Assembly (NCBI RefSeq): GCF_014636865.1
Contig: NZ_BMER01000001.1
Location: forward strand, 670,718-734,717
Origin: Parapedobacter pyrenivorans
GTDB lineage: Bacteria; Bacteroidota; Bacteroidia; Sphingobacteriales; Sphingobacteriaceae
Length of the DNA: 64,000 nucleotides
Reading direction: 5' to 3'
Each line of letters opens with the position of its first letter. Positions within the stretch are counted from its first letter, which is position 1. Made by a program: the position numbers and the translations under genes. Below, piece by piece: positions 7,429 through 34,946 of the stretch. Under the pieces are notes generated by a model that saw nothing but the letters and a program-made list of their open reading frames with translations, searched no databases and had not been told where the DNA came from.

Positions 7429-7493
7429 CAAATATATAGTGTGTTTTGTTACCTAGCTAACCGCATATTAACAAATACCTGTCGTAAATTAAC
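7429..7493 (-). promoter_or_regulatory. Promoter and shared 37-bp operator-like element of locus 1
   Basis: On the minus strand TATATTTG (7429-7436) fits the Bacteroidota -7 consensus TAnnTTTG exactly. Twenty bases upstream begins a 37-bp element (7457-7493). It contains, in minus-strand order, GTTAATTTACG, then GTTAATATGCGGTTAG. The same element at the same spacing stands before locus 3 susC and the GH127 gene. Against the locus 3 copy 28 of 37 bases are identical. GTTA-type repeats begin at element positions 1, 22 and 33, close to whole helical turns, which suits direct-repeat binding by an AraC-type or response-regulator protein (inference). Confidence 0.7.
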
Positions 7494-7529
7494 ATAGGCG
7501 GAAAAATCCACCTATGTTAATTTACGACA
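7480..7529. repeat. Perfect 19-bp inverted repeat between loci 2 and 1
   Basis: The arms 7480-7498 and 7511-7529 are exact reverse complements (19 bp each) around a 12-nt spacer. The inner arm overlaps the distal part of the 37-bp element of locus 1, so part of that element is present a second time in inverted orientation. The repeat also lies about 40 bp beyond the last gene of locus 2. It could act as a terminator hairpin for that operon, although there is no T-run after it, or as a duplicated regulator site. Confidence 0.85.
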
Positions 7530-7567
7530 TACTTTTCAAATCATGTCTTACGATAGAATTTAATGGG

Positions 7568-8923
7568 CTAGGTTGACTCAGCGACAGTCGTTCCGGACAG
7601 CTTAATTTGATAAGGCCACCGTTCTTCCTTTGGCGCCTCAGCCTGCTGCCCCCTACGGCGCATCGGAAGCGACCAATGCTCGGTTGGCGCACCCATGACG
7701 ACTAGCCAAAGGTACTGGGTACCCTTTGGCACCTTAAACGTCGTCGTACCATCGGCGGCAGATTGTGTTTTGCCGTAGACGCGCTTGCCACTGGCGGTGT
7801 ATGCGACAAATCCATACCGCCAACCGGCTTTATCTACATTGTATGAAGTATATCCATCATGGCCGGCCAGGCCTTTGAATTGTAATTTCACCTTACTACC
7901 AGGCTTGGGCACTTCGAGTCTGATACCGTTATAGCCATAGTTCTGCGGGCATTTCGAACTGTCAATACGATGCCAACCGTTACCCATATCGACTAAGGAT
8001 GTGAAATGCTGGTTGGCATATGGACTGGCCACATCGCGGATACGGTCCATATCCCAAGTGATGAACCGGCGGCTCGCATCGAATAGTTCATCATTAAAAT
8101 CCGATTGATTAACAGTGTTCAGCCGTTTGTAGGTCATCACTGCGTCCTCACCCTCAACGGACTCACGCCACAGCCTGGAAACGAAGTCCTTCCCATGCTT
8201 GCTCGACCAGTATTCGAGCACATACGGCGTATGGTACATATTGGTGGGGTGTAGCAAAGCGAAGTGCGTTTTTTCCATAAAACTCACCAGGTGATAATTT
8301 TCGAACGTCATCCATTCGGGGTATACCTGCCACAGCATGTACTGTGAAGTCATTTCTGCCATCGACCCATGGGCTCCGTTCGCACCATCGGCACGGACCA
8401 AAAACTGGAACGAATGTCCCAATTCATGTGCCAGTGTGGCATATGGTGCCTTATTGATCCGGCCCGGAGGCGTCCAGAATATCCCTACATTTTCGCTTCC
8501 ACCACCGAATGCGGTACCGCCCCCGTCCTCACTGCCTATCACATACACTAAAATTTTATACTTGTCCGTCCATGAGCTTCCACGATCGGCAAATTTGAGT
8601 GTATCGATAAAAAAGCCATAGAATCGCTCCGCTTCGGCCAGTGCTTCCTTCAGATTAAACCGCATGGCCGGATTCGGATTCGTCATCGGGTCATCACCAT
8701 ATTGCTTTGACCAAAACGCGGCGAAATTCGGCGTTTCGACCATCCGTTGGTAGCTGAATTCGCTGTTGTTGTCGTTATAATCGTTGCTATCCGGTACGCG
8801 GTATACCTTGGTGGGGATATACAGTTCTTTTGAGTCAGCCTGCAATGATTGTTGCGCCTTTGCCAGACAACCCACTAAAACTAATCCGATAATTAGTATC
8901 ACGTTTTTCCTTGCTCGGTTCAT
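7568..8923 (-). CDS. Secreted HExxH-motif protein, putative metallopeptidase (DUF6055-like)
   Basis: A 451-aa protein with a signal peptide ending near AKAQQ. The core contains ATLAHELGHSFQFL, so His166-Glu167-His170 form a gluzincin-like zinc motif, preceded by a Gly-rich stretch (EDGGGTAFGGGSENVG). The C-terminal part (about 310-440) looks like a beta-sandwich domain (VPKGTQYLWLVVMGAP). The layout resembles proteins called DUF6055, but I am not certain of the family. It is the last gene of locus 2, 53 bp after the DUF5007-like gene. A peptidase here suggests that locus 2 also handles a protein or glycoprotein; activity is inferred from the motif only. Confidence 0.65.
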   Translation of the reverse strand: MNRARKNVILIIGLVLVGCLAKAQQSLQADSKELYIPTKVYRVPDSNDYNDNNSEFSYQRMVETPNFAAFWSKQYGDDPMTNPNPAMRFNLKEALAEAERFYGFFIDTLKFADRGSSWTDKYKILVYVIGSEDGGGTAFGGGSENVGIFWTPPGRINKAPYATLAHELGHSFQFLVRADGANGAHGSMAEMTSQYMLWQVYPEWMTFENYHLVSFMEKTHFALLHPTNMYHTPYVLEYWSSKHGKDFVSRLWRESVEGEDAVMTYKRLNTVNQSDFNDELFDASRRFITWDMDRIRDVASPYANQHFTSLVDMGNGWHRIDSSKCPQNYGYNGIRLEVPKPGSKVKLQFKGLAGHDGYTSYNVDKAGWRYGFVAYTASGKRVYGKTQSAADGTTTFKVPKGTQYLWLVVMGAPTEHWSLPMRRRGQQAEAPKEERWPYQIKLSGTTVAEST

Positions 8924-8976
8924 ATCATTGTCAATTAAAAAGACAACCGTTAAAGACTTGAGTTTGCTACACTTAC

Positions 8977-12368: not shown

Positions 12369-15300
12369 TTAAAATTGCAATTCAATACCAAACGTAAACC
12401 TTGTCGGAATGGGATATCCATCACCGCTATATTCTCCCCAATAGTTGACGGCTTCGGCATCCGGCAACCTACTAGACCGTTGGAACATCGCTAGGTTATC
12501 GGCGATCCCGTATACCCTCACATTATCCATTCCTACGCGTGAGAGGAAACTACTCGGCAGGTTATAAGCAAGACTGACGCTTTTTATTCGGAGATAATCA
12601 CCCCTGTCCAAAAAGTAAGTTTGGCCGGCCACAGAATAATACCTAAACGAACCCAACGGGTAAGCGGGCACCTCTGCCTGATCACCTGGCTTACGCCAAA
12701 TATTTACTTTACTGAGATCAGGAATCGCATATTGCGCGTATGTCCCGGTGCCGTTGGTTCCAGCGCCGTTTTCATATAAATCGGATGCATAAAGATTTAA
12801 CACATCGCGATCAAATGCAAAGTTAAACAGTAGGCCCAAGGTGAAATTCTTCCAAGTAAAATTGTTTGTCCACCCCCCAGTCCATTTCGGATTAGGATCG
12901 CCAATTGGTAGCTTATCCGGGTTGATTCCATCGTTGAATGGATCAATTATAAAGTCACCATCTACATCGCGCAGGAACATATCGCCCGGTTGGTACGCGC
13001 CACCGCCGCTAAAGCGGTCGCCAGTCAGTGGATTGATGGGAATATCATCCACCGTTGAATAAATTCCAAGTGTCTCATACAGATAAAATGTATTGATAGG
13101 GCTTCCTACGGAGAGGATATGGGTCTTATCAAACCGTGAACCCGTAACTACTAAATCGCGACCTGAATTAGGCAGGTTCATAATCTTATTTCTAACATAT
13201 GAGATATTCAATCGGCTGAACCACTGCACGGGGCTTGTTCTGGGTAGCGGATTAGCCATCAAAATAGCCTCTGCACCGTAGTTACGTACACCGATGGAGT
13301 TGGTCAGCGCCCGATCATATCCCGTAGTAATGGGAAGCACCACATCAAACAACGATTGCTTGTTCTCCTTATTGAACACATCGAACGCGAATGAGAAACG
13401 ACCATTCGCCACTTCTCCGTCCACGCCAATGTTCCACTGTACGGACCGTTCCCAACTGATATTAGGCTGAGCTACACCATCGACCAAATTAGGGGTGATC
13501 GCCGTGATACCGTTATATGACGTAGCTCCATTATTCCCCCAGTAGTTACCAGCGTTTACACGGTACAAGTTATATTGCAGGTAGTTGTTGCCAGGCAATC
13601 CGCCTGAGGTACCCAAACTCGCGCGCAGTTTCAGCAATGAAAATGCAGAGTTTTCCATGAAACTTTCTTCGGAAGCAAGCCACGCCACTGATACCGAAGG
13701 AAAATAACCCCATTTGTTGTTTTTGCCGAAACGGGAAGAACCATCACCCCGTATGCTCGCGGATAATAAATACCTGGAATCGTAATCATACGCCAATCGG
13801 CTGTAGAACGAAGCCATACTATAGGCTTGGTAGTCTGAAGACGCGCTTAAATATCGTTGTTGGAAACCCTGGATTACTTGAATTTGGTCTGAGGATCCGT
13901 TAGTTGCACCAGCATCTACCGAACGGTACTGATTATATTCCAAATCCGATCCCAGAATCCCGCTCAAGTTGTGTTTCTGTAAACTCTTCGTATAGCTGAA
14001 ATAATTAGAAGAAAGGAAATTGACTTGATTATCCGAAAAAACATTCTGCTCGTTGCCGGTAAAATTAGTCACCGCATTAGGTTGACTGACGTCCCTGCGG
14101 CTATTCGAATAGATATAGGAAGTTTGCGATGTGAACTGCAAGGCCTTGCTAAACTCGTAGCCTAGGTTGAGATTGAACGTAAGCTGGTTACCAATATTGA
14201 CATCTAAATCCTCGTTGTACATTCCCAACAGGTAATCTCTCCGGGTATCGCTAAGGTTAAAATAAGATGCCGGTGTCCACCTTGCATCCGTTCTGATGCC
14301 TTCACCTCCTCCTCTCGACCGGTCCGTACGTGTATAGGCTACGATGGGATTAATCATCAGTTTCTCTTTTAAAGCCCTCGACATCAGATTTAGACGCATG
14401 GAATAACGTTTGAAGCCCGTTGCTTTCACAATCCCGTCCTCGTCGTACAGCCCTGCACTGAATCGGTAGTTCGTTCCTCCCGTTCCGCCTCCGCTCAAAC
14501 TCAGATCAGCACTATTGATACGTCCGGTCCGATAGAAAAGATCCTGCCAATCTGTTTGGCCGTTGAAAGCAGGATTTAAACTATCGGTTAGTAAATAAGA
14601 GAGCCTTCGATAGTCAATACCCCCACTCTCGCCGCCATCCCTTAGCGGTTTCAGGTCTTCCAGAAGTCGCATCTTTTGCCTCCGCTCCTCGGCTCCAACG
14701 ACGACATCTCGTAACTCAGGCCGAGAGGTTAGACCAGTGTACGCTGATACCATCACTTGTGGTTCCGTGCTACGACCTTTTTTAGTGGTGATCATAATGA
14801 CTCCATTTGCAGCCCGTGATCCATAGATTGCAGCTGCGGATGCATCTTTAAGCACATCAATGCTCTCAATATCCTGCGGGTTAATACCCGCAATAAAATT
14901 GGTTCCTGTGCCTGTCTGCGGACTGGTATACTGCTGTGGTGGTTGTGGCACACCATCTACCACATATAGTGGCGCATTACCAACGCTGAATTCATCATAC
15001 TCTCGACTTAAACTGGTATTCCCCCGCACCTGTACCACAGGTGTAGCTCCCGGCTCGCCAGTAAAATTCTGGACATTTACGCCCGCTAGACGCCCCTGCA
15101 AAAGTTGATCAAAGCTTGCCGCAGGCAAGTTGGCCAATTCTTTACCAGAAATGCTTGAAATAGCGGCTGTTGTCTTTTTCCGAGTTACTTGTTGGTACCC
15201 AATAATAACTACCTCATCCAGTGAACTTTGCGACTCATGAAGCTTTATTTCAATACTACTTCTGTTTTCAATATTTACAGACTGCTTATCAAAACCCATT

Positions 15301-15515
15301 AAAGAAAACTCCAACGTAGTATTTCTACCTGCGTCAATCACAAACATGCCTTCGTCATCCGTCTGCGTACCGCCAGGCGCTCCCTTTAAAGAAACGGTTA
15401 CGCCTGCCAACGGACTTCCGCTTTCATCAGTCACCACTCCCCTTATCGGCCCGGACTGGGCCCAACACCAAGCGTGCCAAATACAATAAAAAACAAGTAA
15501 AATATTTCTCTTCAT
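12369..15515 (-). CDS. SusC/RagA family TonB-linked outer membrane transporter (locus 2)
   Basis: A 1048-aa protein with a signal peptide ending at AWCWAQ, a carboxypeptidase-regulatory-like domain (GVVTDESGSPLAGVTVSLKG) and a TonB box region (LDEVVIIGYQ). The plug (GRLAGVNVQNFTGEPGATP, SAAAIYGSRAANGVIMITTK) and a barrel ending in TFGIELQF follow. Plug and barrel motifs resemble locus 1 SusC, so the two loci are likely ancient duplicates. It heads the five-gene locus 2 operon, with a promoter-like box about 170 bp upstream. Confidence 0.96.
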   Translation of the reverse strand: MKRNILLVFYCIWHAWCWAQSGPIRGVVTDESGSPLAGVTVSLKGAPGGTQTDDEGMFVIDAGRNTTLEFSLMGFDKQSVNIENRSSIEIKLHESQSSLDEVVIIGYQQVTRKKTTAAISSISGKELANLPAASFDQLLQGRLAGVNVQNFTGEPGATPVVQVRGNTSLSREYDEFSVGNAPLYVVDGVPQPPQQYTSPQTGTGTNFIAGINPQDIESIDVLKDASAAAIYGSRAANGVIMITTKKGRSTEPQVMVSAYTGLTSRPELRDVVVGAEERRQKMRLLEDLKPLRDGGESGGIDYRRLSYLLTDSLNPAFNGQTDWQDLFYRTGRINSADLSLSGGGTGGTNYRFSAGLYDEDGIVKATGFKRYSMRLNLMSRALKEKLMINPIVAYTRTDRSRGGGEGIRTDARWTPASYFNLSDTRRDYLLGMYNEDLDVNIGNQLTFNLNLGYEFSKALQFTSQTSYIYSNSRRDVSQPNAVTNFTGNEQNVFSDNQVNFLSSNYFSYTKSLQKHNLSGILGSDLEYNQYRSVDAGATNGSSDQIQVIQGFQQRYLSASSDYQAYSMASFYSRLAYDYDSRYLLSASIRGDGSSRFGKNNKWGYFPSVSVAWLASEESFMENSAFSLLKLRASLGTSGGLPGNNYLQYNLYRVNAGNYWGNNGATSYNGITAITPNLVDGVAQPNISWERSVQWNIGVDGEVANGRFSFAFDVFNKENKQSLFDVVLPITTGYDRALTNSIGVRNYGAEAILMANPLPRTSPVQWFSRLNISYVRNKIMNLPNSGRDLVVTGSRFDKTHILSVGSPINTFYLYETLGIYSTVDDIPINPLTGDRFSGGGAYQPGDMFLRDVDGDFIIDPFNDGINPDKLPIGDPNPKWTGGWTNNFTWKNFTLGLLFNFAFDRDVLNLYASDLYENGAGTNGTGTYAQYAIPDLSKVNIWRKPGDQAEVPAYPLGSFRYYSVAGQTYFLDRGDYLRIKSVSLAYNLPSSFLSRVGMDNVRVYGIADNLAMFQRSSRLPDAEAVNYWGEYSGDGYPIPTRFTFGIELQF

Positions 15516-15682: not shown

Positions 15683-15720
15683 CAAAGGTACTTTTGCTTT
15701 AAACTACATTGTAGTCAAAT
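15683..15720 (-). promoter_or_regulatory. Promoter of locus 2 susC with a nearby palindrome
   Basis: On the minus strand TACCTTTG (15683-15690) matches TAnnTTTG. Upstream lies the palindrome ACTACATTGTAGT (15703-15715), flanked by TTTGAC (15714-15719). The 37-bp element of loci 1 and 3 is absent, so locus 2 is probably under different control. Beyond this, the 285-bp gap 15516-15800 shows only AT-rich leader sequence. Confidence 0.5.
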
Positions 15721-15800
15721 TTTCACCATTGCCAGGCAAATTTTGATTCACTATATTGATAACGTTTGGTCAAACCCTCACCAACCGATCGCATTGTCAT

Positions 15801-18125: not shown

Positions 18126-18222
18126 AACACTGTGTACTTTGCCTATATCCAATGATGCATGTACCCTTGTCGTATAGTTAGTTTATCATGGTTACGTATG
18201 CCCAATACGCATCGGGTAGATA

Positions 18223-18287
18223 CAAAGGTAAAGGCATAGGTTATACAACACTAACCGGATATTAGCGGAAAGGGGTAGAAATTTAAC
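18223..18287 (-). promoter_or_regulatory. Promoter and shared 37-bp operator-like element of the GH127 gene
   Basis: On the minus strand TACCTTTG (18223-18230) is a full -7 match. Twenty bases upstream begins the 37-bp element (18251-18287), which includes GTTAAATTTC and CCGCTAATATCCGGTTAG on the minus strand. It shares 27 of 37 bases with the locus 3 copy. The predicted leader is about 90 nt. The divergent gene at 18374 starts 87 bp beyond the element and might share it. Confidence 0.7.
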
Positions 18288-23332: not shown

Positions 23333-23361
23333 ATGGTCTAATTTGTTGAAATCACCCATGG

Positions 23362-25110
23362 TTATTTCCAGAATGGGGCTTGTTCATAAAATTTCCAGCT
23401 CGTCTTGAAATTCTTGTCCAAAGGCTGTTCTGTAAGGATAGCTCGCACCATTTCCACCGGCATCGCGTTTAAGGTCAACACCTTATCATGAAATTCCTTA
23501 ATGGGCATTTTCCCACTATCCACCAACTCCCGTTTCAGTCCGGAAAATTGCAAGCCACCCATCATATAAGCCAGTTGGTACAGCGGCGTTATACGCAGGC
23601 CGAATGACCTCCTAACCTCAGCTTCGGCGTTTGCGCGTTCGAAGACGACGCGGTCTACCAAAAAGTCGATACACTCCTGAGGTGTCCATTTACCCAGATG
23701 GTAGTTGAGCGAGAAGATTACCCGGGCACACCGGTGCATCCGCCAAAAAAGCATGCCGAGCCGATCTTCCGGCGATTGCGGAAAGTCCATATCATAGAGC
23801 AGGAACTCCCAGTACAATGCCCATCCCTCGGTCCAGAATGGCGTTCCAAATGAGCGGTAGGTACGGTATCTGTTGGTCATCATCCGCTGGTAGTGATGGC
23901 CCACGATCGATTCGTGATGCACGGTTGCCCGCGAAAAATGGGGATTATTGCCGCGCATGCTCATCATCCGGTCTTCAACCTCCATGGTGTTGGTTGGATA
24001 CGATATGCTGATTGAAGTTCCGCCAGTGAAAAAGGGATTCACCAGTTGACGCTCCGGCGACATCATCCGCAATCCCCAGACCTCTACGGCCAACGGATCG
24101 ATCGTTGCTAGATCATGCGCTTTGATGAAATCGAGCGATTCATTGAACAGCCTACGGATAAGTGCTGGCTTACCTCCCGCCGGCACATACGTTTCCTTTA
24201 CTTTCTCTTGTGCGGCTTTCCAATCGTCACCGAAGCCCATTTCCCGTGAAGCTTTCAAGGCTTCGGCATCGCACCACTCAAACTCCTTCATGGCGATATC
24301 AATCAATTCCTCGGGCGTGTAGGGAATGAAATCGTATCGCAAAAGCTTGATAAGCTCCTCCCTACCAACGGGTTTGCCTACGATACCACTGTCGTCCATT
24401 TGAAGACGGCCTGCAACCAATTGTTCCCCGAAATCGTCGGCATATCCCGACAATTCCCTCACGAGGTTTTCGTATGGCAGGGGTACCCACCAGGTGTATA
24501 GCGGATCGTAGCCATTGTAAAACTCATAGGCGCTGCGCAAAGCCGTTTGTAATCCGGTAATGATATTGCCAGCGGTATAGATATCCAGCACATTCAGGCT
24601 TTCGTCGGTTTTTAGTTGGGCCCGCAACGCCTTGATCTGCTTTATCATATCCGTATAACGCAACGCGATTTGTTTGGAGTCGGGTATGTCACTGCCGTCG
24701 CGCCTGAAGCGCTCTTCGTCGTAAATAGCCTCCGCAAAAGGAAACCACTTGGTGATTTTTTCAACGGCCTCCCGCTCGGCCTGCGAAAGCCGGAGCTGTT
24801 CTTCGCGATCCCGTTTGAACAGGATATAGTCAACCTGGCACTCCTGCGATAAACTCGAAAAATCAATCTTCGACAATTTATCCAAATAATCCCGATCGTG
24901 CTTTTCAAAGCGTGCCCGGCGCTCCGGCGAATATTCAACGATATAGGCTATCCGCAGGGATGCCAGGTCGGCATCGTAGCGTGTAATCAGTTGGGGCATG
25001 ACCTGGCAGGGTACAAATTCATTGTCCGCTTGTGCCGGTGCACGTCCGGGCGCCAACAGAAGTAATGCAGCCACTATAACCCGGCTGCGGAGTAGGGATG
25101 TTCTCATCAT
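23362..25110 (-). CDS. DUF885-family putative metallopeptidase, secreted (locus 3, second copy)
   Basis: A 582-aa protein with a signal peptide (VAALLLLAPGRAPAQ). DUF885 hallmarks are FYNGYDPLYTWW, SMRGNNPHFSRATVHHE, the HExxxGHHxQ segment (HHESIVGHHYQRMM) and EGWALYWEFLLYD. The histidines and glutamates fit a zinc peptidase site. The usual Pro before the GH is Val here, unlike the two other copies (IPGH and VPGH), so specificity or activity may differ. It starts 8 bp after the first DUF885 gene and precedes the S9 peptidase. The likely role is cleavage of imported peptides in the periplasm. Confidence 0.85.
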   Translation of the reverse strand: MMRTSLLRSRVIVAALLLLAPGRAPAQADNEFVPCQVMPQLITRYDADLASLRIAYIVEYSPERRARFEKHDRDYLDKLSKIDFSSLSQECQVDYILFKRDREEQLRLSQAEREAVEKITKWFPFAEAIYDEERFRRDGSDIPDSKQIALRYTDMIKQIKALRAQLKTDESLNVLDIYTAGNIITGLQTALRSAYEFYNGYDPLYTWWVPLPYENLVRELSGYADDFGEQLVAGRLQMDDSGIVGKPVGREELIKLLRYDFIPYTPEELIDIAMKEFEWCDAEALKASREMGFGDDWKAAQEKVKETYVPAGGKPALIRRLFNESLDFIKAHDLATIDPLAVEVWGLRMMSPERQLVNPFFTGGTSISISYPTNTMEVEDRMMSMRGNNPHFSRATVHHESIVGHHYQRMMTNRYRTYRSFGTPFWTEGWALYWEFLLYDMDFPQSPEDRLGMLFWRMHRCARVIFSLNYHLGKWTPQECIDFLVDRVVFERANAEAEVRRSFGLRITPLYQLAYMMGGLQFSGLKRELVDSGKMPIKEFHDKVLTLNAMPVEMVRAILTEQPLDKNFKTSWKFYEQAPFWK

Positions 25111-25118
25111 CGGTACGT

Positions 25119-26870
25119 TTATTTTATTATTTTCAAGTCGTTATCGTCGTAGAACCGCCATTGGGTTTTGTATTCCTTCGTTAATGGCCGACCGGTTAAG
25201 ACTGCCCGTATCATTTCCATCGGCATGGCATTCAACTTGATAATCCCATCATGGAAATCACGATAGCTCAGCTGCCCACCATCAACCAGCTCCTTTTTCA
25301 TGTGCATCATCTGGATACCACCCAGCAAATAAGCGATCTGATAAAGTGGCGCGCCCCGTGTACCCGCACTGAGCGGCCCCCTGATTTCGCTTATCGCATT
25401 TTCGCGCTCGTGCCCCACTTCATCCACCAGGTAATCGATGCACTGCTGGGGCGTCCATTTCCCCAAATGGAAATTCAGGGAAAAGATGATACGCGCACAG
25501 CGGTGTCTCCGCCAGAACAGCATGCCTATTCTATCCTCGGGCGTTTGCGGGAATTTCTTGTCCCACAGCAACAATTCCCAGTATAGCGCCCAGCCTTCCA
25601 TCCAGAACGGTGTGGAAAACTCCGACCGATAGGTCCGGTACCGGTCGCGCATGAAAAATTGGAGATTATGCCCGGGAATCAACTCGTGATGTACCGTAGC
25701 CCGAGAGAAATGTGGATTATTGCCCCGCATGCTCATAAGCCGTTGGTCGATATCCATCGTATTCGTGGGGTAGGATATGCTGATTTCCCACCCACCCGTG
25801 AAAAACGCCGTGTACCGTTGCCGCTGGGGCGTCATCATGATCATGCCCCACGTCTCCTCCGCTAAAGGCGGAATCGTTATCAAATCGTTGGATTTGATAA
25901 AATCAATCGATTCGTTGTACAATCGCAATATCGTTTCGGGTTGCTTACCGGGGTCCACGTATTGCTCTTTTACATACTCATTGGCTTTTCGCCAATCATC
26001 GCCGAAGCCAAGTTCGCGCGACGCCTTGATCAATTCCTGATCGCACCACGCCATCTCTTTCTGCGCAATCTCATAGATTTCCTCGGGCGTATAGGGAATC
26101 ATTTCGTAGGTAAATAGCTTCACCAGCTCATCACGTCCCACGGGTTCCCTAGAGATGATGCCATTCTGGTCAGCGGGTGGCAGCTTCGATTCAAACTGCG
26201 TTGCAAACCGACTTAACGTGCTGTCCAATTGCTTGTAAGGACGCTCCGCCCACCAGGTAAACGAAGGGTCGTAGCCGTTGTAAAACTCGAATACGCTGGT
26301 CAATGCGGTCTGGAACCCAGCGATGGTCTGTTTGGCCGTGAGAATCTCACCCGTAGTAAACTGTGCGTCGCTTTCCACGAACCGTTCATTGAGCTGCCTA
26401 ACTTCCTTGGCAAGATTGTTCCAATAGATCGCCACACGTTTGGCATCTATACTTGCACCCCGTCTACGCTTTTTTTCCAAAGCATAGACCGAATCGGCAA
26501 AGGGAAACCAAGTCACAACCTTCTTGAATTCTTCTTCTTCCTTCTTTGCAAAGCGGATATACTCGTTTAAATTCCTTCGGAAAAGCAGGTAATCCACCTT
26601 ACATTCTTGGTTCAATACATTGAAATCCAGCCCATCCAAAGCCGTCAGGTAATCGTTGTATAACAAAATAAGCCGCTCGCGGCGCTCGGGAGACATGCCC
26701 ACTGTATAAAACCGGTTGACGGCCCGTCGATCTGCAGTAAACTGCTGAATAAGGTGGGGTACTTCCTGGCAGGGCACCGCTGAAAGCTCTTGCTGTGCGC
26801 TACTGGGCAGTGTACTGATTACAAATAGGATAAGTGCTATTATGCCTTTTATTTTCACGATGTGTGTCAT
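25119..26870 (-). CDS. DUF885-family putative metallopeptidase, secreted (locus 3, first copy)
   Basis: A 583-aa protein with a signal peptide ending at PSSAQQ. It shares the same landmarks as its two paralogues in the window: FYNGYDPSFTWW, SMRGNNPHFSRATVHHE, HELIPGHNLQFFM and EGWALYWELLLWD. The zinc-binding HExxPGH motif is intact. It lies 23 bp after susD and 8 bp before the next DUF885 gene, in one operon. DUF885 members are mostly uncharacterised; peptidase function rests on the motif and on the neighbouring S9 peptidase. Confidence 0.88.
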   Translation of the reverse strand: MTHIVKIKGIIALILFVISTLPSSAQQELSAVPCQEVPHLIQQFTADRRAVNRFYTVGMSPERRERLILLYNDYLTALDGLDFNVLNQECKVDYLLFRRNLNEYIRFAKKEEEEFKKVVTWFPFADSVYALEKKRRRGASIDAKRVAIYWNNLAKEVRQLNERFVESDAQFTTGEILTAKQTIAGFQTALTSVFEFYNGYDPSFTWWAERPYKQLDSTLSRFATQFESKLPPADQNGIISREPVGRDELVKLFTYEMIPYTPEEIYEIAQKEMAWCDQELIKASRELGFGDDWRKANEYVKEQYVDPGKQPETILRLYNESIDFIKSNDLITIPPLAEETWGMIMMTPQRQRYTAFFTGGWEISISYPTNTMDIDQRLMSMRGNNPHFSRATVHHELIPGHNLQFFMRDRYRTYRSEFSTPFWMEGWALYWELLLWDKKFPQTPEDRIGMLFWRRHRCARIIFSLNFHLGKWTPQQCIDYLVDEVGHERENAISEIRGPLSAGTRGAPLYQIAYLLGGIQMMHMKKELVDGGQLSYRDFHDGIIKLNAMPMEMIRAVLTGRPLTKEYKTQWRFYDDNDLKIIK

Positions 26871-26893
26871 AAGCTATTACGAACTTGTTTTTA

Positions 26894-28285
26894 TCAGGGT
26901 TGATCCCACCATATACGGTCCGTCAACGTTGCGGTATGTTGCGATTGCGGGTTGGTAGAGACCTCAATCAATGGGTAAATCAACCGTCTTGGGATATCGG
27001 AAAGTGCATTTTCCACTTTCGCCATAACCGGAAAGCCCGTGCGCCGCCAATCGTTGAAGTTCTCAGCCGAAAGGAAATTAGCAACCTTTTTATCTTCCAT
27101 GATGCGTTGTAAAGCATTGCCGGCGGTAAGTGGTAACCGTGTAGACAGGTAGGTCTGTACGTCCGCATCGTCACGAGACAAGCCCACCTGTTCCATATTG
27201 GCCAATATGGCCTCCCGGAATATCGGTTCAGCAGCCGCATGCCCTGAAACAATAAGCGTTGCTTCGGCTTCAATGAATAACGCTTCGGAGTAAGTCAGCA
27301 AATGCACGCTGGCGTCCTGCCCCCCATAGTAATCCCCTAATATGGAATACGATTCCAAACTACCAATTCCCTGTTGCCCTAAAGGTCGTCCCCGGTACTC
27401 GCCATCGCTCTTTGCCGGAGTGACCAACAGCGGAAGGCGCGGGTCATTCCGGGACACGAGTGTATCCACGGCATTGGCAGCAAGCACGATGGTCTCGATG
27501 GGCAACATCCGCGTAAACCACCGGCTCTGCGTACCAGCGCCACCCGGGTAATCAAACTCCATGTTTTCGGCATTGCTCCCATACCCTTGCGCCAGCGCCT
27601 GAAGGGCTTGCGTGGCCTGTTGTACCGCATCATATCCGGGAGCATCGGTGAGGTGCATATGAAAGCGAGCTTTCATGGTATAAGCAGCTTTTACCCAATT
27701 CTCCATGTTCCCAACGAAGAAAAAATCATCGTTGCCGGGCGTCAGCCCGATATTTCTACCAATGTCAGCAATCCCTTCATCCAGCAGTTGCTGGATGGAT
27801 TGATAAATGGATTCCTGAGCGTCATATGCGGGTGTGAAATTGCCTTCGCCTTGCAAGCTTTCCGAATACGGGATATCTCCCCAAAAAGAGGTCCCCAGCC
27901 CAAGGCAATAGGCAGTCAATATCTTGGCGATACCTGCATAATGAAAATTCTGGCGCTCTTCGGCTTGCAGCTTCAGGATGTTCAAATTTTTTAAACTGGT
28001 CGCATACAATGCCGTCCACGGCGCATCCAGCTCACTTGGCACCAGCAAATAGGTACCATGATTGGGAATGGGCTGGTTCAAGGCGATATTCTGCATATAG
28101 TAATTGACGAACAGCGTACCGTTGCCCGCCGTGATGTTATGCGCAATCTGATAGCAAAGGGGAGCCAGCAGCAGCTTCTCATCCACCTTGGTAGGGGCAT
28201 TCGGATTCTCGTTGACATCTATAAAGTTTTCACAACCAGCAAACAATACTACTGCAAAAATGAAAGAAAAAATACGCGTCTTCAT
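26894..28285 (-). CDS. SusD-like lipoprotein of the SusD-like_2 type (locus 3)
   Basis: A 463-aa lipoprotein (FAGCENFIDVNENPNAPT after the signal). The DVNxNPN start and motifs such as LNILKLQAEERQNFHYAGIA, AYCLGLGTSFWGDIPYSESL and a late FNDWRRTGFP fit the second SusD family (SusD-like_2). This form is frequent in pairs not linked to glycan enzymes. It sits 11 bp after susC and directly before peptidase genes. That gene order points to a peptide substrate. Confidence 0.9.
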   Translation of the reverse strand: MKTRIFSFIFAVVLFAGCENFIDVNENPNAPTKVDEKLLLAPLCYQIAHNITAGNGTLFVNYYMQNIALNQPIPNHGTYLLVPSELDAPWTALYATSLKNLNILKLQAEERQNFHYAGIAKILTAYCLGLGTSFWGDIPYSESLQGEGNFTPAYDAQESIYQSIQQLLDEGIADIGRNIGLTPGNDDFFFVGNMENWVKAAYTMKARFHMHLTDAPGYDAVQQATQALQALAQGYGSNAENMEFDYPGGAGTQSRWFTRMLPIETIVLAANAVDTLVSRNDPRLPLLVTPAKSDGEYRGRPLGQQGIGSLESYSILGDYYGGQDASVHLLTYSEALFIEAEATLIVSGHAAAEPIFREAILANMEQVGLSRDDADVQTYLSTRLPLTAGNALQRIMEDKKVANFLSAENFNDWRRTGFPVMAKVENALSDIPRRLIYPLIEVSTNPQSQHTATLTDRIWWDQP

Positions 28286-28296
28286 CAGCTTTTAGT

Positions 28297-31284
28297 TTAG
28301 AAATTCACGGATAGGGTAAAATTGTAAGATCTGGCTGTCGGTACGGAATAGGCGTACACCCCTTGGGAACCATTGGAAGAACCAAAGCTGCTTACTTCTG
28401 GATCGGATCCCGTAAAATTCGGAGCATAAATCCATAAATTCCTGCCGGTCGCGGCGAGGGACACTGCACTAAACGGCGTCCTACTGATCCATTTTTCAGG
28501 AAACTGATATCGGATAGACGCATTGCGCAGCTTCAGGAAAGTTCCATCCTGTATGATGGATTCGTAAATCAGATTCAGCCGTTGGTAGTAATCTTGTGCC
28601 TGTACTTCTACCGTATTCGGCTGGTTGTCCACAACGCTTATTCCCGGTATCACGCGCGGCTCTCGGTTTTCTGTCACCTTGGGTGTCCCGTAGAAAAATC
28701 CGTACCGCTCATCCGAATTGAAGATATCGCCGCCCTTTTTGAAATCAAAGAAGAAATCAAAAGAAAGGTTGCGGTACCTGAAATTATTCGTTATGCCGGC
28801 CAGCCATTTTGGCTGTATGTTACCGATCATCTGCAATTCGTTGCTAACCATGGGTAGTCCACCTGCATCGATAAGGATTTCATTTGCTTCATTCCGGCTG
28901 TAGCCATAGTTATAGAACGCCCCGTAAGGCTGGTTGAGGAAAGCCCATGTTTCGCCGATCTGCAGCCGATCCTGGTCGCCATATATCCGGGTTACGTTAT
29001 TCCTTATCCGCGAGAAGTTAACGGTCATATCCCATGAAAAATTTGCGTTTTTAATAGGTGATCCGTTGACGATCAATTCAATGCCCTTGTTGGTCATATC
29101 ACCTGCATTGAGTGTCGTGGAACTATAGCCCGTTGCCGGCGAGATCGGAATATTCGACGTCAGCAATTCCACATGATTTCGATTGAAATAGCTAAACTCA
29201 AAACCCAATCTAGTCTTCAGGAATTGCATTTCAAGGCCAACCTCATATTCCTTCGTCTTTTCGTTTACCAAACTATTGTTGCCCAGGGTGTTGCCCATCA
29301 GAAAACCGCTCCGGTTGTTGAACGGGAAATTACCAGCAATCTGGAAAGGCGTTTGTAGGCTATACGGGCCGATGTTATCGTTGCCCACTATGGAATAGGA
29401 GGCCCTAAGCTTACCGAACGTGATGGCCGGTACATCCAGCAGTTCCGAAAACACGAACGAAGAAGACATCGAACCATAAGGGTAATACCGATTGCCGACG
29501 TTCAAGACCGAGCTACCATCATAGCGGCCGGTCAGGGAAAGGTTGAGGAAGCGCCTGAATTCGATATTGGCCTGCGAATAAAATCCGACTTTTCGCTGGA
29601 GGTAGTGGCTTTCCGTGCTGACCTGCCGTTCGGAATTGCTGACATTTTTAAAGTCCTCGATGGTCAGCCCGGTTCCTTCGATCTGATAATTCTGGCTGTA
29701 GGTGGATAATATGTTGTTTCCCAGCATCAGGCTGATATCCCAATCCTCACCAAATTGCTTCCGGGCCTCAACGATAAGGTCGTGATTGAACTGGCGGAAG
29801 TTGTTGTTGCGATCGCGGATCACACCGAGTGTCTGCAAGGTATTGCTCCGCGCTTCATAGTACTTGGTCTGTTCCGCAAAAATATCCGCACCGATGCGTT
29901 CGGTAACCGTTAACCAAGTGAATGGTTTGTATGTGAACGTGGCGACCGGGAGGAACCGATGGACAATCGACTCATTATTGATATGATTCAACACCCAGTA
30001 CGGATTATTCCTGGAGAAACGGAAAACCCGCTGGTTGCCGTTTTCGTCTAGGTAAGGTAACGGATTCCAGGTCCGGGGAGCTGTATAGATCGTCCACAAT
30101 GGGCTTTCCAGCCCGTGACCTTCCGGCACCCGGTCTGAGGACGACGTGGTATAGTTCAGTTGGATGGTACTCGACAGCTTTTCGGAGATCTCAGTCGTGT
30201 ATTTCGCAAACATGGCATGCCGGTCGTAGGCAGACTCGGGCACCACGCCTCCCTGATTGACAAACGAATAGGATAGGAAATAATTGGATCGCGCACTTCC
30301 CCCATCGATGCTCAACGAATTGGTTGCGGTCTTTCCCGTCCGGAAAAATTCTTCCATCGGGTTTTTATTATACGTGACTAGGCCGCTGGCCAGGAGTTCC
30401 GCGATTGGCGGCCCCCAAACGGTACTTGTCTTTCGCTCATCGCCGTCATAATATTCCCCGCGATCTCCCAGCGCATATTTTTCTTGTACCTCAGGGAGGA
30501 TCGGATTTTCCAATGAGTACTGGGAAGTAAACGAAATAGTAGGTTTGCGATCCTTCGACCCATTTTTTGTAGTAATCATCACCACGCCCCGCGCGGCTTT
30601 CGAACCATATAATGCAGCGGCAGCCGACCCTTTCAACACGTTGATGGACTCAATAATAGCTGGGTCGATATCGGAAATACGGCTTATCCCTGCTCCGGGT
30701 CCGGCATTGCCGCCCTCATCATTGTTTATGGGGACACCGTCCAGCACGATCAGTGCTTCATTCTCCCCCAATAACGAACTGGTGCCACGGATAACGATGC
30801 GTGACGAACTTCCCGGCTGGCCACTGGATGACGTAATCTGGACACCCGATACTTTGCCGGTAAGCGCATTCAGTACATTCGGTTCTTTTGAATTCGCAAC
30901 GGATTCACCGCTGACCTGCTGGGTGCTATAAGTGAGCTGTCTTCGCTCCCTTCTTATCCCAAGGGCAGTTACCACTACCTCATCCAGATCGGTCGATTCG
31001 CCAATCAGGCGAATCTCATAATCATCTCGGTTGTCGATAGAAAATGTGGCTGGCTGATAACCCACCGAAGTGACCGAAACGGTACTACCGACATTACTGA
31101 CCAACGAAAACATGCCTTCTTCATCGGTTTGACTCGTCGCCGAAGTGCCCAGAACCTGTATGGTCACCGATGCAATCGGAATTCCATCTTCCGACATTAC
31201 TTTGCCGGTAATGGTCTTCTGTTGGCTATAGGCAATCGAGCAACAAACCGCACAAAATAAGATAAGTGAAGTGATTCTTTTCAT
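28297..31284 (-). CDS. SusC/RagA family TonB-linked outer membrane transporter (locus 3)
   Basis: A 995-aa protein with a signal peptide, a carboxypeptidase-regulatory-like domain (GKVMSEDGIPIASVTIQVLG), a TonB box region (LDEVVVTALGI), the plug (GKVSGVQITSSSGQPGSSSR, SAAAALYGSKAARGVVMITTK-like) and a barrel ending in NFTLSVNF. The TALGI form of the box differs from the VGYQ/IGYQ form of loci 1 and 2, so it is a different SusC lineage. It heads the operon susC-susD-DUF885-DUF885-S9. Confidence 0.96.
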   Translation of the reverse strand: MKRITSLILFCAVCCSIAYSQQKTITGKVMSEDGIPIASVTIQVLGTSATSQTDEEGMFSLVSNVGSTVSVTSVGYQPATFSIDNRDDYEIRLIGESTDLDEVVVTALGIRRERRQLTYSTQQVSGESVANSKEPNVLNALTGKVSGVQITSSSGQPGSSSRIVIRGTSSLLGENEALIVLDGVPINNDEGGNAGPGAGISRISDIDPAIIESINVLKGSAAAALYGSKAARGVVMITTKNGSKDRKPTISFTSQYSLENPILPEVQEKYALGDRGEYYDGDERKTSTVWGPPIAELLASGLVTYNKNPMEEFFRTGKTATNSLSIDGGSARSNYFLSYSFVNQGGVVPESAYDRHAMFAKYTTEISEKLSSTIQLNYTTSSSDRVPEGHGLESPLWTIYTAPRTWNPLPYLDENGNQRVFRFSRNNPYWVLNHINNESIVHRFLPVATFTYKPFTWLTVTERIGADIFAEQTKYYEARSNTLQTLGVIRDRNNNFRQFNHDLIVEARKQFGEDWDISLMLGNNILSTYSQNYQIEGTGLTIEDFKNVSNSERQVSTESHYLQRKVGFYSQANIEFRRFLNLSLTGRYDGSSVLNVGNRYYPYGSMSSSFVFSELLDVPAITFGKLRASYSIVGNDNIGPYSLQTPFQIAGNFPFNNRSGFLMGNTLGNNSLVNEKTKEYEVGLEMQFLKTRLGFEFSYFNRNHVELLTSNIPISPATGYSSTTLNAGDMTNKGIELIVNGSPIKNANFSWDMTVNFSRIRNNVTRIYGDQDRLQIGETWAFLNQPYGAFYNYGYSRNEANEILIDAGGLPMVSNELQMIGNIQPKWLAGITNNFRYRNLSFDFFFDFKKGGDIFNSDERYGFFYGTPKVTENREPRVIPGISVVDNQPNTVEVQAQDYYQRLNLIYESIIQDGTFLKLRNASIRYQFPEKWISRTPFSAVSLAATGRNLWIYAPNFTGSDPEVSSFGSSNGSQGVYAYSVPTARSYNFTLSVNF

Positions 31285-31420
31285 AATTTTTTGGATTCAT
31301 TTTGTAACGTCAGTAAACATTGAAAAATTAACTCGCCTTGCGTCACGTTCGAAAGTGACCATAGTTAAATCCCGGCCTCGTTTAATAATTGAATAATTGG
31401 TTGAAAATGTCAAAAAGACA

Positions 31421-31443
31421 CCCACTATTGCAAATATAGTGGG
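31421..31443. repeat. Inverted repeat over the -7 box of locus 3
   Basis: CCCACTAT (31421-31428) and ATAGTGGG (31436-31443) are perfect 8-bp arms around a 7-nt spacer, and pairing can extend outward with one bulged G. The repeat covers the TATATTTG box and the likely transcription start of susC. It could bind a repressor. The other copies of the promoter do not have it. Confidence 0.6.
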
Positions 31444-31495
31444 GTGTATAGGACGAGCCTAACCGCATATTGGCGGATACAAACCGTAATTTAAC
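31431..31495 (-). promoter_or_regulatory. Promoter and shared 37-bp operator-like element of locus 3
   Basis: On the minus strand TATATTTG (31431-31438) is a full -7 match. Exactly 20 bp upstream begins the 37-bp element (31459-31495), with GTTAAATTACGG and CCGCCAATATGCGGTTAG on the minus strand. CCGC-N6-GCGG within it is a small palindrome (31463-31476). The leader to susC is about 140 nt. Confidence 0.72.
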
Positions 31496-31581: not shown

Positions 31582-33003
31582 CTATGAGTTTTCAGGCATC
31601 GATTTTTTACGAATCAAATAATATACTGGAATACCTAATAATGCAATGATGATTCCCGGCCATGTATAATTAGGCTTGTAAATAGTCATCAACACGATAA
31701 ATGAAATACCCATCACGATGTAAATCATGGGCAATACCGGATAGCCAAAAGCCTTATACGGCCGCGGTATATCCGGCCGTGACTTACGCAATCGGAAAAT
31801 ACCGATTATAGCCAGTACGTAAAAGATAACCACCACACTGGAAATCATGTCCAACAGATCGCCATACTTGCCGCTTAAACACCATAATGATGCAAAAATA
31901 CACTGCAACCAAAGGGCCACGCCCGGAACGGCAGATTTATTGAGCCGCCCTACTTTCTTGAAGAAAAGCCCATCCTGAGCCATCGAATAGTAAACCCTCG
32001 CACCAGCCATAATCAGTCCATTGTTGCATCCGAAAGTGGAAACCATGATCATCACGGCAATGATGATAATACCGACAGTACCGAAGATTTCCTGCGCGGC
32101 TGTCATCGCTACCCGATCTTTATCGGATGCCGCCATCTGTTCCATCGTCAGTACACCGGTGTACATGAGGTTGGTGAGCAGATAAACAACGGTGACAATG
32201 ATGGTACCCAAAGCTAAGCTGAGCCCCACATTCCGGCTTGGGTTTTTGATCTCTCCGGCCACAGACGACGATGCATGCCACGAGTCGCTGCTAAATATGG
32301 CACCCACCATACCCGCGGCGATAGCTCCTAATGCCGCAAATGTCGTGTAGTCGGCCAACGAGCCATCTGCATTCAGCCTCCGAAGATTCCACGCATCGCC
32401 CGATAGCCAATTGGCTTGCCATACCTCGCCATTGAAGGCAAATAGGCCGAAAAGGACCAATCCCGAAAGACTAACAATTTTTACAACAGTGATGGACGTC
32501 TGCACGGCCTTACCGCTGTTGACCCCGCGGGTATTGACAATCGTAAGCAGCAAAATAACCACAATGGAAACCAGCTGGGCAGACGACAGCTGTAAAAAGC
32601 CGAGGTCCATCAGGATGACGTCTTCATCCAGCAGTGGGAGGAGATAAGCCGTAAACTTGGCGAAGGCCACCCCCACCGCAGCGATCGTAGCGGTTTGAAT
32701 AACGGTAAAAAAAGTCCAACCAAAAACGAAGCTGACAAGGGGATTGTAGGCTTCCCGTAAGTAAATGTACTGACCTCCGGCTTTAGGGAACATGGCACTC
32801 AGCTCTCCATAGCTCAATGCGGCGGTCAGCGTCATGAATCCAGTAATCAACCATACGGCCATCAGCCAACCAGCGCTGCCTGTATTGCGTGCAATATCCG
32901 CGCTAACGATAAAAATCCCAGAACCGATCATACTCCCCGCCACCAGCATCGTGGCATCCATCAGCCCCAATGATGACTTAAATCCACTAGTTGTCGTACC
33001 CAT
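31582..33003 (-). CDS. APC-superfamily amino-acid permease
   Basis: A 473-aa protein of about 12 membrane segments. It opens with LMDATMLVAGSMIGSGIFIV, the conserved TM1 glycine motif of amino acid-polyamine-organocation carriers. LSYGELSAMFPKAGGQYIYL is also typical, and the C-terminal RPDIPRPYKAFGYPVLP loop is characteristic of the LAT/SteT branch. It moves amino acids across the inner membrane by antiport or proton symport. It lies 23 bp after the third DUF885 gene. Cleavage products are therefore probably taken up by this carrier. Confidence 0.93.
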   Translation of the reverse strand: MGTTTSGFKSSLGLMDATMLVAGSMIGSGIFIVSADIARNTGSAGWLMAVWLITGFMTLTAALSYGELSAMFPKAGGQYIYLREAYNPLVSFVFGWTFFTVIQTATIAAVGVAFAKFTAYLLPLLDEDVILMDLGFLQLSSAQLVSIVVILLLTIVNTRGVNSGKAVQTSITVVKIVSLSGLVLFGLFAFNGEVWQANWLSGDAWNLRRLNADGSLADYTTFAALGAIAAGMVGAIFSSDSWHASSSVAGEIKNPSRNVGLSLALGTIIVTVVYLLTNLMYTGVLTMEQMAASDKDRVAMTAAQEIFGTVGIIIIAVMIMVSTFGCNNGLIMAGARVYYSMAQDGLFFKKVGRLNKSAVPGVALWLQCIFASLWCLSGKYGDLLDMISSVVVIFYVLAIIGIFRLRKSRPDIPRPYKAFGYPVLPMIYIVMGISFIVLMTIYKPNYTWPGIIIALLGIPVYYLIRKKSMPENS

Positions 33004-33026
33004 CGTAATTTGCCTTGATTGTTAGA

Positions 33027-34808
33027 TCAGTTAAAGTCATAAAACTTCCAGTTCGGTTCATAATCTCGTTTCAGCTTTTGGTTGGTCAACGTGGCATGCA
33101 CCATTTCCATAGGCAGATAATTTTCTTTGATGACCGCCTCATGGAACGCCTTGAAAGTCATTTTTCCACTATCTACCAGTTCTTTTTTGATACTGTAGAG
33201 CTGTAATCCGCCAACGAGGTATGCCAATTGGTACAATGGACTGTAATTGGCCTCAAACGAGCGCTTCACTTCGCCATGTGCATTGGCGGGTTCATGCCCT
33301 ACACGGTTTACCAAGTAGTCGATACATTGTTGTGGGGTCCATTCGCCGAGATGGTATTTGATGGAAAAGGTTATGCGGGCGCACCGGTGCATCCGCCAGA
33401 ATAGCATGCCGATGCGCTCTTCCGGTGTTTTGGCAAATCCCTTATTATATAGGAGTAATTCCCAATAGAGGGTCCATCCCTCCGTCCAAAACGGTGTGTT
33501 GAATGCTTCACGGCGATACGTTTTATACCGGCTATTCATGAAATATTGCAGGTGATGCCCCGGTACCAATTCATGTTGCACTGTACCACGGGAGAAGTAA
33601 GGGTTATTGCCACGCATGCTCATCAACTTCTGGTCATGCGACATCGTGTTGGTGGGGTAAGAGACACTAATCTCCCGACCGCCGGTAAAGAATGGATTTA
33701 CCAGCTGCCTTTCGGGCGTCATCATGATCATGCCCCAGGTTTCCTCGGCAAGTGGCGGCAAATCCATCAGTTCATGCTGTTTGATGAATTGCATTGCGTC
33801 GTCATTGAGCTTAATGATCAATTCGGGCTGTTTGCCGGGCGCCACATAGCTATTCTTTACTTTTTCCTGCGCGGCTTTCCAATCATCTCCAAAACCCATC
33901 TCACGGGAAGCCTTTAGCAATTCCGCCTCGCACCAAGCAAACTCCTTATCCGCGAGTTCCAGTAGCTCATCCGCCGTATAAGCGATCAGTTCTTCCTGCA
34001 ATTGGCGATTGAGTTCTTCACGCCCGATGGGCTGCCCAGCAATATTGCTGCCATCGTCGAATACCTTTGCATCACTTTTCGAACGGATGACCTTCAAATA
34101 GCTATCTAGCGCTTCATCAAGTGCCTTATAAGGCTCGGGTACCCACCACGTAAACAACGGATCGTAGCCGTTATAAAAATCGTAGGCACTTTTCAGGCGA
34201 GACTTCAGTCCTTCCAGTACACCGGCCAAAAAGGTCGCGTCGTTTTGGTCGATTTTATCCAATTTTTCCACGGCATCTCTGGCCACCTCCAATGCTGCCA
34301 GTGCATCGTCCAGCTGCTGAGCAAAGGCAGCACCGTCTACACTCGTACCCCGGCGGCGCTTCGCTTCAACATCATAGATGGTTTCGGAAAAAGGAATATA
34401 TTGCTCAACACGCCGGTATTGCACCGCTTCTTCTTCAAGATCTTTGAGACTGGCCTCGATTTTCCGCTTTAACAGCACATAGTCGACCTGCCCATGGATA
34501 CTCATGCCATCGAAGTCCAGTCGATTCAGCTTATCGAGGTATTCGTTATCCAATTTAAGCATCCTCTCCCGTTGTTCGGGCGAATTGGCTGAAGAACTCC
34601 CCCAACGACTATATCCACCTGATGACATGGGGCCATAGAAATAGGCGATGGCCCGTGTATCTTGGCCATATTGTACCACCAAGCCCGACACTTCGCTCGC
34701 CTGCTCGTATAAGCTGGTTAATTGGGTCGTTTGCTGCGCAACCGCAAAAGCAGGAATAAAAATCCCATAGCATAATGCGGCAAACGTATTTCGTAACTTA
34801 CATGTCAT
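33027..34808 (-). CDS. DUF885-family putative metallopeptidase, secreted (third copy)
   Basis: A 593-aa protein. I chose the ATG at 34808; a TTG three codons upstream also opens the frame. The signal peptide ends near FAVAQQ. DUF885 landmarks are FYNGYDPLFTWW, SMRGNNPYFSRGTVQHE, HELVPGHHLQYFM and EGWTLYWELLLYN. It is the first gene of a two-gene unit with the APC permease. It shows long, clear similarity to the two locus 3 copies, suggesting duplication. Confidence 0.88.
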   Translation of the reverse strand: MTCKLRNTFAALCYGIFIPAFAVAQQTTQLTSLYEQASEVSGLVVQYGQDTRAIAYFYGPMSSGGYSRWGSSSANSPEQRERMLKLDNEYLDKLNRLDFDGMSIHGQVDYVLLKRKIEASLKDLEEEAVQYRRVEQYIPFSETIYDVEAKRRRGTSVDGAAFAQQLDDALAALEVARDAVEKLDKIDQNDATFLAGVLEGLKSRLKSAYDFYNGYDPLFTWWVPEPYKALDEALDSYLKVIRSKSDAKVFDDGSNIAGQPIGREELNRQLQEELIAYTADELLELADKEFAWCEAELLKASREMGFGDDWKAAQEKVKNSYVAPGKQPELIIKLNDDAMQFIKQHELMDLPPLAEETWGMIMMTPERQLVNPFFTGGREISVSYPTNTMSHDQKLMSMRGNNPYFSRGTVQHELVPGHHLQYFMNSRYKTYRREAFNTPFWTEGWTLYWELLLYNKGFAKTPEERIGMLFWRMHRCARITFSIKYHLGEWTPQQCIDYLVNRVGHEPANAHGEVKRSFEANYSPLYQLAYLVGGLQLYSIKKELVDSGKMTFKAFHEAVIKENYLPMEMVHATLTNQKLKRDYEPNWKFYDFN

Positions 34809-34880
34809 AATGAACAATTTAAAAATAGCCGCTCCGAATCAAAAAGCAACAGGTTTACTAAAATGGGTTAGCAATTGGAG

Positions 34881-34946
34881 CAAATATAGGATAAGATACG
34901 CGAGCAAAGGTAATCACATATTAACTTATCATGCCCCGATTTGAGC
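34881..34946 (-). promoter_or_regulatory. Promoter and weaker copy of the shared element before DUF885-permease
   Basis: The minus strand has TATATTTG at 34881-34888. Starting 21 bp upstream (34910-34946) is a sequence matching the proximal 16 bases of the locus 1 element at 13 positions, including the block GTTAATATG. The distal half is poorly kept. A second -7-like box, TACCTTTG, lies at 34905-34912 and would be an alternative. Confidence 0.45.

Follow-up and report, generated by a model that had tools for sequence, protein, structure and literature searches.

Which regulator reads a 37-bp element that recurs at a constant distance before promoters of Parapedobacter pyrenivorans, and which task do the genes behind it share? 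The question arises from a 64,000-nucleotide stretch of the 5.93-Mb genome (C1:670718-734717, C1 being contig NZ_BMER01000001.1; the genome is called G000 here). This whole stretch is referred to as the window, and its own coordinates are used unless a contig number is prefixed. Judging from the sites, their geometry, their conservation and the genes linked to them, the elements are likely to be operators of a cupin-AraC activator at the head of a regulon for hydroxyproline-rich glycoproteins. The three elements, E1 to E3, and the boxes that follow them are:

7457..7493, minus strand: E1, 16-bp half-site, 5-bp spacer and 16-bp half-site, upstream of the SusC gene 3893-7081
7429..7436, minus strand: -7 type box TATATTTG, 20 bp after E1
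18251..18287, minus strand: E2, upstream of the GH127 gene 15801-18152
18223..18230, minus strand: box TACCTTTG, 20 bp after E2
31459..31495, minus strand: E3, upstream of the SusC gene 28297-31284
31431..31438, minus strand: box TATATTTG, 20 bp after E3

As the initial annotation had reported, the three elements are equally long, free of gaps and on the minus strand, each lies exactly 20 bp from a perfect TAnnTTTG box, and the block AATATsCGGTTAG is kept in the alignment of all three. The similarity that it gave as 27-28 of 37 bases per pair is real, but the measured values are 26, 28 and 27 of 37; 23 of the 37 positions are identical in all three when compared without gaps. GTTA-like repeats had been placed at positions 1, 22 and 33. 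Those at 1 and 22 start two 16-bp half-sites 21 bp apart, whereas the one at 33 closes the second of them. Half-sites of 16 bp in direct repeat, separated by a 5-bp spacer (16-5-16) and recurring with a period of 21, thus make up the element. Within E1–E3 alone, lag 21 gives the highest identity (0.54; the other lags average 0.26), and it is also the best lag in a gapless alignment of 12 strong sites, at 0.55. The consensus of the 24 half-sites is GTTAATATGCGGTTAG, and over the 12 sites the mean count of the majority letter is 9.5 in the element vs. 5.5 in the 20-bp spacer that follows it. The promoter consensus of Bacteroidota has a -33 element. With its end 20 bp before the box, the proximal half-site would cover the -33 position, and its GTTAG presumably sits there.

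Two structures in the DNA overlap these sites. The DUF6055 gene seems to have its terminator at 7480-7529, in the form of a 23-nt inverted repeat with 96% complementarity and a loop of 4 nt. Its stem takes in most of E1's distal half-site (7478-7493), so that operator and putative terminator share bases. An imperfect hairpin followed by T residues was seen by eye at 31408-31445, overlapping the box after E3; the inverted-repeat search did not report it at the settings used. An Rfam search of the window returned zero RNA families at the gathering threshold, and for this reason the reading as an RNA element was dropped.

Genome-wide matches at random positions, which the initial annotation had named as a possible refutation, were not what the searches returned. 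With up to three mismatches, the 37-bp consensus occurs in the entire genome at exactly the three places in the window (reversed-pattern control: one match). The combined pattern of element, spacer and box, at the same tolerance, is found in 10 of 150 genomes, against one match of the reversed control over all 150. Four matches each fall to G000 and G004, two each to G003 and G007, and one each to G006, G043, G058, G067, G076 and G105; the copies cluster, with four in 43 kb in G004, two in 12 kb in G007 and two in 9 kb in G003. The counterpart of E2 in G007 precedes a GH127 gene whose product shares 78% identity with that of the window. The search of the genome and its relatives that had been called for also produced copies before further SusC loci: a fourth strong element, E4 (with spacer and box at C1:668459-668523, 2.2 kb beyond the left end of the window), precedes another SusC gene in G000, and the others lie in G004, G022 and G338.

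A 65-position profile gave 39 non-training matches in 827,691 bases, part of which had been chosen for motif matches. All 39 are covered by open reading frames (ORFs) over less than half of their length and 38 are not covered at all, though ORFs make up 92% of that sequence; the mirrored profile gave 2 matches and 30 permuted profiles 1.1 on average. It is hardly conceivable, then, that the elements resemble each other by chance or are functionless promoter DNA that was recently duplicated. The window does hold three strong copies only, as such an explanation would have it, but it is contradicted by the conservation of the element above that of its spacer, by the recurrence of copies in other genera, by the avoidance of ORFs and by the following scan of geometry.

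Pairs of half-site profile matches before TAnnTTTG were counted for 231 combinations of period and gap, with the 12 training sites left out. In 608,530 bases fetched around window and AraC genes, and not for motif matches, the combination of period 21 and gap 20 accounts for 10 sites and the 230 others together for 4. Over all regions, the figures are 31 and 9 with duplicates and 30 and 9 once these are removed, but they include regions chosen for motif matches, and 10 vs. 4 from the unselected subset is the fair comparison. The evidence for the 20-bp gap rests on E1–E3 and on these 10 of 14 unselected pairs; the other training sites had been found with the gap fixed and are not counted. Geometry and specificity together support the earlier proposal of a regulon that joins distinct loci through a direct-repeat-binding activator reaching -33, and such a regulon does appear to exist here. 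That the elements are operators of the AraC type as such is very probable.

A Pfam scan of 29 window proteins found no AraC regulator and no hybrid two-component regulator (HTCS). The regulator had been described as unidentified and not encoded in the window; the latter is probably correct, but a candidate can be named with fair support. It is a cupin-AraC protein encoded at C1:749804-750682, 15 kb beyond the right end of the window, and its gene is followed by genes for a dihydrodipicolinate synthase (DHDPS)-like protein, an aldehyde dehydrogenase, a 4-hydroxyproline epimerase (equivalog match of 586 bits vs. a cut-off of 376) and a flavin adenine dinucleotide (FAD) oxidoreductase. We consider it quite probable that this protein is the regulator of E1–E3. 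Its putative recognition helices, with limits set by hand, are constant across genera at 12–14 of 15 and 12–13 of 13 positions, at an overall identity of 43–46%. The orthologues in G003 and G007 are 88% identical to the protein of G000. Within the genus, the AraC orthologue and the epimerase are present in G000, G002, G003, G004 and G007 and not in G001, G005, G006 and G008; four of the five carriers have pattern matches, and among the non-carriers one does, G006, at three mismatches. The epimerase occurs in 8 of the 10 motif genomes vs. 33 of the 150 overall (p = 8e-5; within the family 6e-4, kinship ignored in both).

A first look at AraC paralogues in G000 yielded about 70 candidates, of which the one at C1:651140-652024, encoded last in the operon that E4 precedes, was weighed as the rival. 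It would make the elements AraC-type operators of another protein, and several observations suit it: it is present in all four motif-bearing members of the genus, it lies near the cluster in G000, G003, G004 and G002, and its divergent neighbor has a site of the same layout. Yet it is also found, at 71–87% identity, in G005, G006 and G008, which have no strong motifs, and among 11 motif genomes outside the genus 10 lack a match to it at an E-value of 1e-60 or below, with G076 offering a 38% match. Its own site scores 4.5 vs. 12–24 for the hydroxyproline-operon sites in the four motif-bearing genus members, and its recognition helices agree at 7 of 15 and 7 of 13 positions. This paralogue was set aside as the regulator on account of its poorly fitting distribution, and we regard it as an improbable alternative.

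The hydroxyproline AraC is also where copies in more distant relatives lead. The 12 strong sites were made into a sequence model (R1), which was searched against 399 genomes of the family with strict filters that lose some weak matches. At an E-value of 0.01 or below it gave 47 matches, namely the 12 training sites and 35 others, 11 of them full length (model start at 3 or below, end at 63 or above) and 24 partial. Six of the 11 lie beside a hydroxyproline AraC gene or in the promoter of a hydroxyproline operon; the AraC gene directly adjoins the site in G058, G377, G248, G214 and G278, and in G426 it comes last in the operon, some 5 kb from the site. Three more precede SusC loci, in G004, in G022 (40 kb from its AraC gene) and in G338, whose order of DUF6055, site, GH43, SusC, SusD and DUF4859 resembles locus 1 of the window. 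The remaining two, in G374 (inside an ORF) and G379, look unrelated. The sites of G058 and G004 were already known from the pattern search of 150 genomes. Weaker copies stand beside the hydroxyproline AraC gene in G000, G003, G004 and G007.

Fourteen of the 24 partial matches were inspected. Linked ones are found before a GH127 gene in G265, before a pair resembling sigma and anti-sigma factors on contig C2 of G000, on contig C9 of G338, where the match precedes an apparent TonB-type gene, and in G006, where it adjoins another AraC gene; the remainder have no visible link. The partial copy at C2:641536-641589 of G000 (L188; E-value 4e-4) stands before a gene resembling an extracytoplasmic function (ECF) sigma factor and then an anti-sigma-like gene, both named by eye.

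The landing of R1 matches beside cupin-AraC genes in other genera also bears on the idea that a membrane-bound HTCS reads the elements, in the manner of typical polysaccharide loci. HTCS proteins carry AraC-type DNA-binding domains, the predicted targets include SusC/D genes, and a direct repeat with a long spacer before SusC, a feature of HTCS regulons, is present here; the HTCS_Man motifs of Bacteroides likewise span 37 bp, as two 16-bp direct repeats around a 5-bp spacer (PMC3878776). However, the Y_Y_Y sensor domain (PF07495), the sole sensor domain searched, has no match in C1:590718-764717, the nearest lying at C1:783033, nor on contigs C54 and C85 of G043, which bear the motif or the AraC gene; an HTCS lacking that domain would be missed by this search. 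Nor was an HTCS noticed in the inspected stretches around the R1 matches, few of whose proteins were scanned. An HTCS as the reader of E1–E3 therefore appears unlikely, at much the same level as the paralogue.

Several observations weigh against the assignment to the cupin-AraC and to hydroxyproline-rich glycoproteins. The six supporting R1 matches come from perhaps three lineages, since G377 and G248 share one site and those of G214 and G278 are nearly identical. The best motif scores at 30 hydroxyproline-AraC loci show no overall difference from those at 20 paralogous AraC loci (medians -0.8 and 0.4; Mann–Whitney p = 0.47); the highest scores are those of orthologue loci (34, 24 and 23; paralogue maximum 13.8), and many distant orthologue loci have no recognizable copies. 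Several paralogous AraC loci share the layout with other half-sites, so that layout alone does not name the regulator. The hydroxyproline operon's own site in G000, at C1:750693, has a profile score of 24 vs. 53–76 for E1–E4 and reads GGGTGG where E1–E3 have GGTTAG in the proximal half-site; with a site so weak and divergent, two regulators might be involved. G002 possesses both the genes and the AraC protein (78%), yet the strict model matches nothing there, and all that it has is a weak site with a score of 10.7. On the side of the gene content, the match of the window's DUF6055 protein to the NCBIfam Svx model is partial and remote (65.7 bits vs. a cut-off of 625), and in the search of 150 genomes the motif genomes G003, G043 and G076 have no DUF6055 protein over the cut-off.

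Other AraC loci with a 16-5-16 repeat, a gap of 20 and a TAnnTTTG-like box but different half-site letters were seen at C1:650868 of G000 (L182) and at several of the loci L229–L244. The data suggest that this layout is a general rule for AraC-controlled promoters in the family.

What the genes behind the elements might have in common can be read from the window itself:

3893..7081, minus strand: SusC-type TonB receptor, locus 1, predicted target of E1
2405..3880, minus strand: SusD, locus 1, followed by two DUF4859 proteins
7568..8923, minus strand: DUF6055 protein with an HExxH motif, remote match to Svx and MXAN_6640 metallopeptidase models
12369..15515, minus strand: SusC, locus 2
15801..18152, minus strand: GH127 beta-L-arabinofuranosidase family protein (by family membership), predicted target of E2
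21074..31284, minus strand: locus 3, with SusC, SusD-like_2, two DUF885 proteins and a DPP-IV (S9) peptidase, predicted target of E3
31582..34817, minus strand: amino-acid permease and DUF885 protein
34989..35927, minus strand: Delta1-pyrroline-2-carboxylate reductase (NCBIfam equivalog, 410 vs. a cut-off of 322 bits)

The apparent targets (GH127, SusC/D, DUF885, DPP-IV and permease) and the linked DUF6055 protein suit the use of a hydroxyproline-rich glycoprotein such as extensin. This reading follows from the gene set together with the role of the GH127 enzyme HypBA1 on extensin arabinofuranose and the cleavage of extensin by Svx: the hydroxyprolines of extensin bear beta-linked L-arabinofuranose, which is processed with the help of HypBA1 (PMC7263609), and Svx is described as cleaving extensins (PMC13164431; PMC9266454). 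The HExxH motif of the DUF6055 protein is at residue 166. DUF6055 proteins over the cut-off occur in 12 of the 150 genomes, and all 12 are among the 33 epimerase carriers (p = 2e-9, kinship ignored). DUF5695, Xaa-Pro aminopeptidase and GH43 genes join the loci of relatives. In G002 the hydroxyproline operon, the apparent target genes and the DUF6055 gene form a single run, beginning with Xaa-Pro aminopeptidase, FAD dehydrogenase, epimerase, aldehyde dehydrogenase, DHDPS-like protein and AraC, and continuing with DUF885, permease, DPP-IV, the weak site, SusC and SusD; a further trio of genes that closes with DUF6055-DUF4859 comes next, and then GH127 and DUF5695.

The same regulator could instead serve animal collagen or peptide-bound hydroxyproline in general, and not a plant glycoprotein. 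For proline-rich peptides of any kind, DPP-IV, Xaa-Pro aminopeptidase and the catabolism of hydroxyproline would be fitting, and the HypR regulon of Streptomyces includes a collagenase (PMC6608401). On the other hand, GH127 genes follow the site in G000 and G007, belong to the motif locus of G043, follow the partial site in G265 and lie near the hydroxyproline operon in G426 and G002, and GH43 genes are found within the motif loci of G004 and G338. Collagen is not known to carry beta-L-arabinofuranose, which we count against this alternative. We regard it as possible but clearly the less probable choice of substrate.

For the regulon of hydroxyproline-rich glycoprotein use, a mechanism can be outlined. 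Half-sites 21 bp apart, that is, two helical turns, would put an AraC dimer on one face of the DNA, and an activator at the -33 position would recruit RNA polymerase directly. The cupin-AraC presumably senses hydroxyproline or a hydroxyproline product, and this one activator probably switches on sugar trimmers, importers, protein cutters and hydroxyproline catabolism together.

Three weaker copies are found in the window:

15683..15747, minus strand: diverged copy with box TACCTTTG, before the locus 2 SusC gene 12369-15515; exact geometry, score 8.6 (threshold 8)
34881..34946, minus strand: weak copy, element at 34910-34946 with a gap of 21 bp to TATATTTG, before the DUF885 gene 33027-34817 and the permease gene 31582-33003
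35976..36040, minus strand: weak copy with box TATCTTTA, before the pyrroline-2-carboxylate reductase gene; score 22.4

The first of these overturns the earlier statement that the locus 2 promoter lacks the element, and G007 has a weak copy at C1:493478 before the SusC gene corresponding to that of locus 2. The second had been noted as a weaker copy before the DUF885-permease pair; the copy stands, with counterparts in G007 (20-bp gap) and G043 (before the permease), but its own gap is 21 and not 20 bp. A second sequence model matches it at an E-value of 0.1, the G007 and G043 counterparts being among its training sites; 15683-15747 and 35976-36040 are themselves training sites of this model, and its matches there are not independent.

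Two kinds of genes outside the elements' immediate reach were also noticed. DUF5695 proteins recur in motif-bearing or AraC-linked loci (C1:624656 and C1:654525 of G000; L081, L248, L254 and L144); they are possible further enzymes of this pathway. At C1:615711-622257 (L063), some 50 kb to the left of the window, an apparent NUDIX-type regulator lies by arabinose catabolic genes, all named from the beginnings of their sequences; these would fit the use of released arabinose.

With these results, a motif seen by eye becomes a testable regulon with a named regulator, promoters and a substrate class. If the reading is correct, it would show how a Bacteroidota bacterium dismantles the protein part of the plant wall and would place SusC/D loci under a soluble AraC regulator, and DUF6055, DUF5695, DUF885 and DUF4859 would share a role in the breakdown of arabinosylated hydroxyproline peptides. 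AraC-controlled promoters in the family may, moreover, be found in a general way through the rule of geometry (16-5-16, gap 20, TAnnTTTG). A search of the open-access literature gave, among the matches listed, no report of an extensin regulon in Bacteroidota and none in which a single soluble AraC controls SusC/D loci together with beta-arabinofuranosidase, peptidases and the catabolism of hydroxyproline. We give about equal credence to this being, or not being, the first Bacteroidota regulon dedicated to hydroxyproline-rich glycoproteins of plants (extensins), in which a soluble cupin-AraC, and not a membrane HTCS, SusR or an ECF sigma factor, would run several SusC/D loci, Svx-like metallopeptidases, beta-L-arabinofuranosidases, proline-peptide peptidases and hydroxyproline catabolism via a strict 16-5-16 repeat 20 bp before the -7 box.

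Parts of this picture are already known from other systems, namely the 16-5-16 layout from the HTCS_Man motifs (PMC3878776) and the control of hydroxyproline genes by an AraC protein from LhpR (PMC6608401). In Bacteroides thetaiotaomicron, the HTCS_Man repeats likewise precede SusC/D and are read by an AraC-type DNA-binding domain (PMC3878776); the predicted regulator here is a soluble cupin-AraC instead of a membrane HTCS, and the likeness is one of layout. LhpR, cited in PMC6608401 as the AraC activator of hydroxyproline genes in Pseudomonas aeruginosa, shares its family and, by prediction, its catabolic target genes with our candidate, but what that source says of LhpR mentions no SusC/D or glycosidase targets. 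As in regulons of the LhpR and HypR type, epimerase, DHDPS-like deaminase, aldehyde dehydrogenase and FAD dehydrogenase genes go with a linked regulator gene. The HypAA-HypBA2-HypBA1 system of Bifidobacterium longum resembles the proposed one in employing GH127, joined by GH43 in relatives of P. pyrenivorans, for arabinosylated hydroxyproline glycoproteins (PMC7263609). It differs in that Bifidobacterium combines an ABC importer with GH121, a family not searched for in our data, whereas here SusC/D, peptidases and hydroxyproline catabolism are found. Finally, the DUF6055 protein is similar to Svx of Pectobacterium atrosepticum (PMC9266454; PMC13164431) in having an HExxH motif, and for Svx extensin cleavage is shown; it differs in that the Svx model matches it in part and at a score well under the cut-off.

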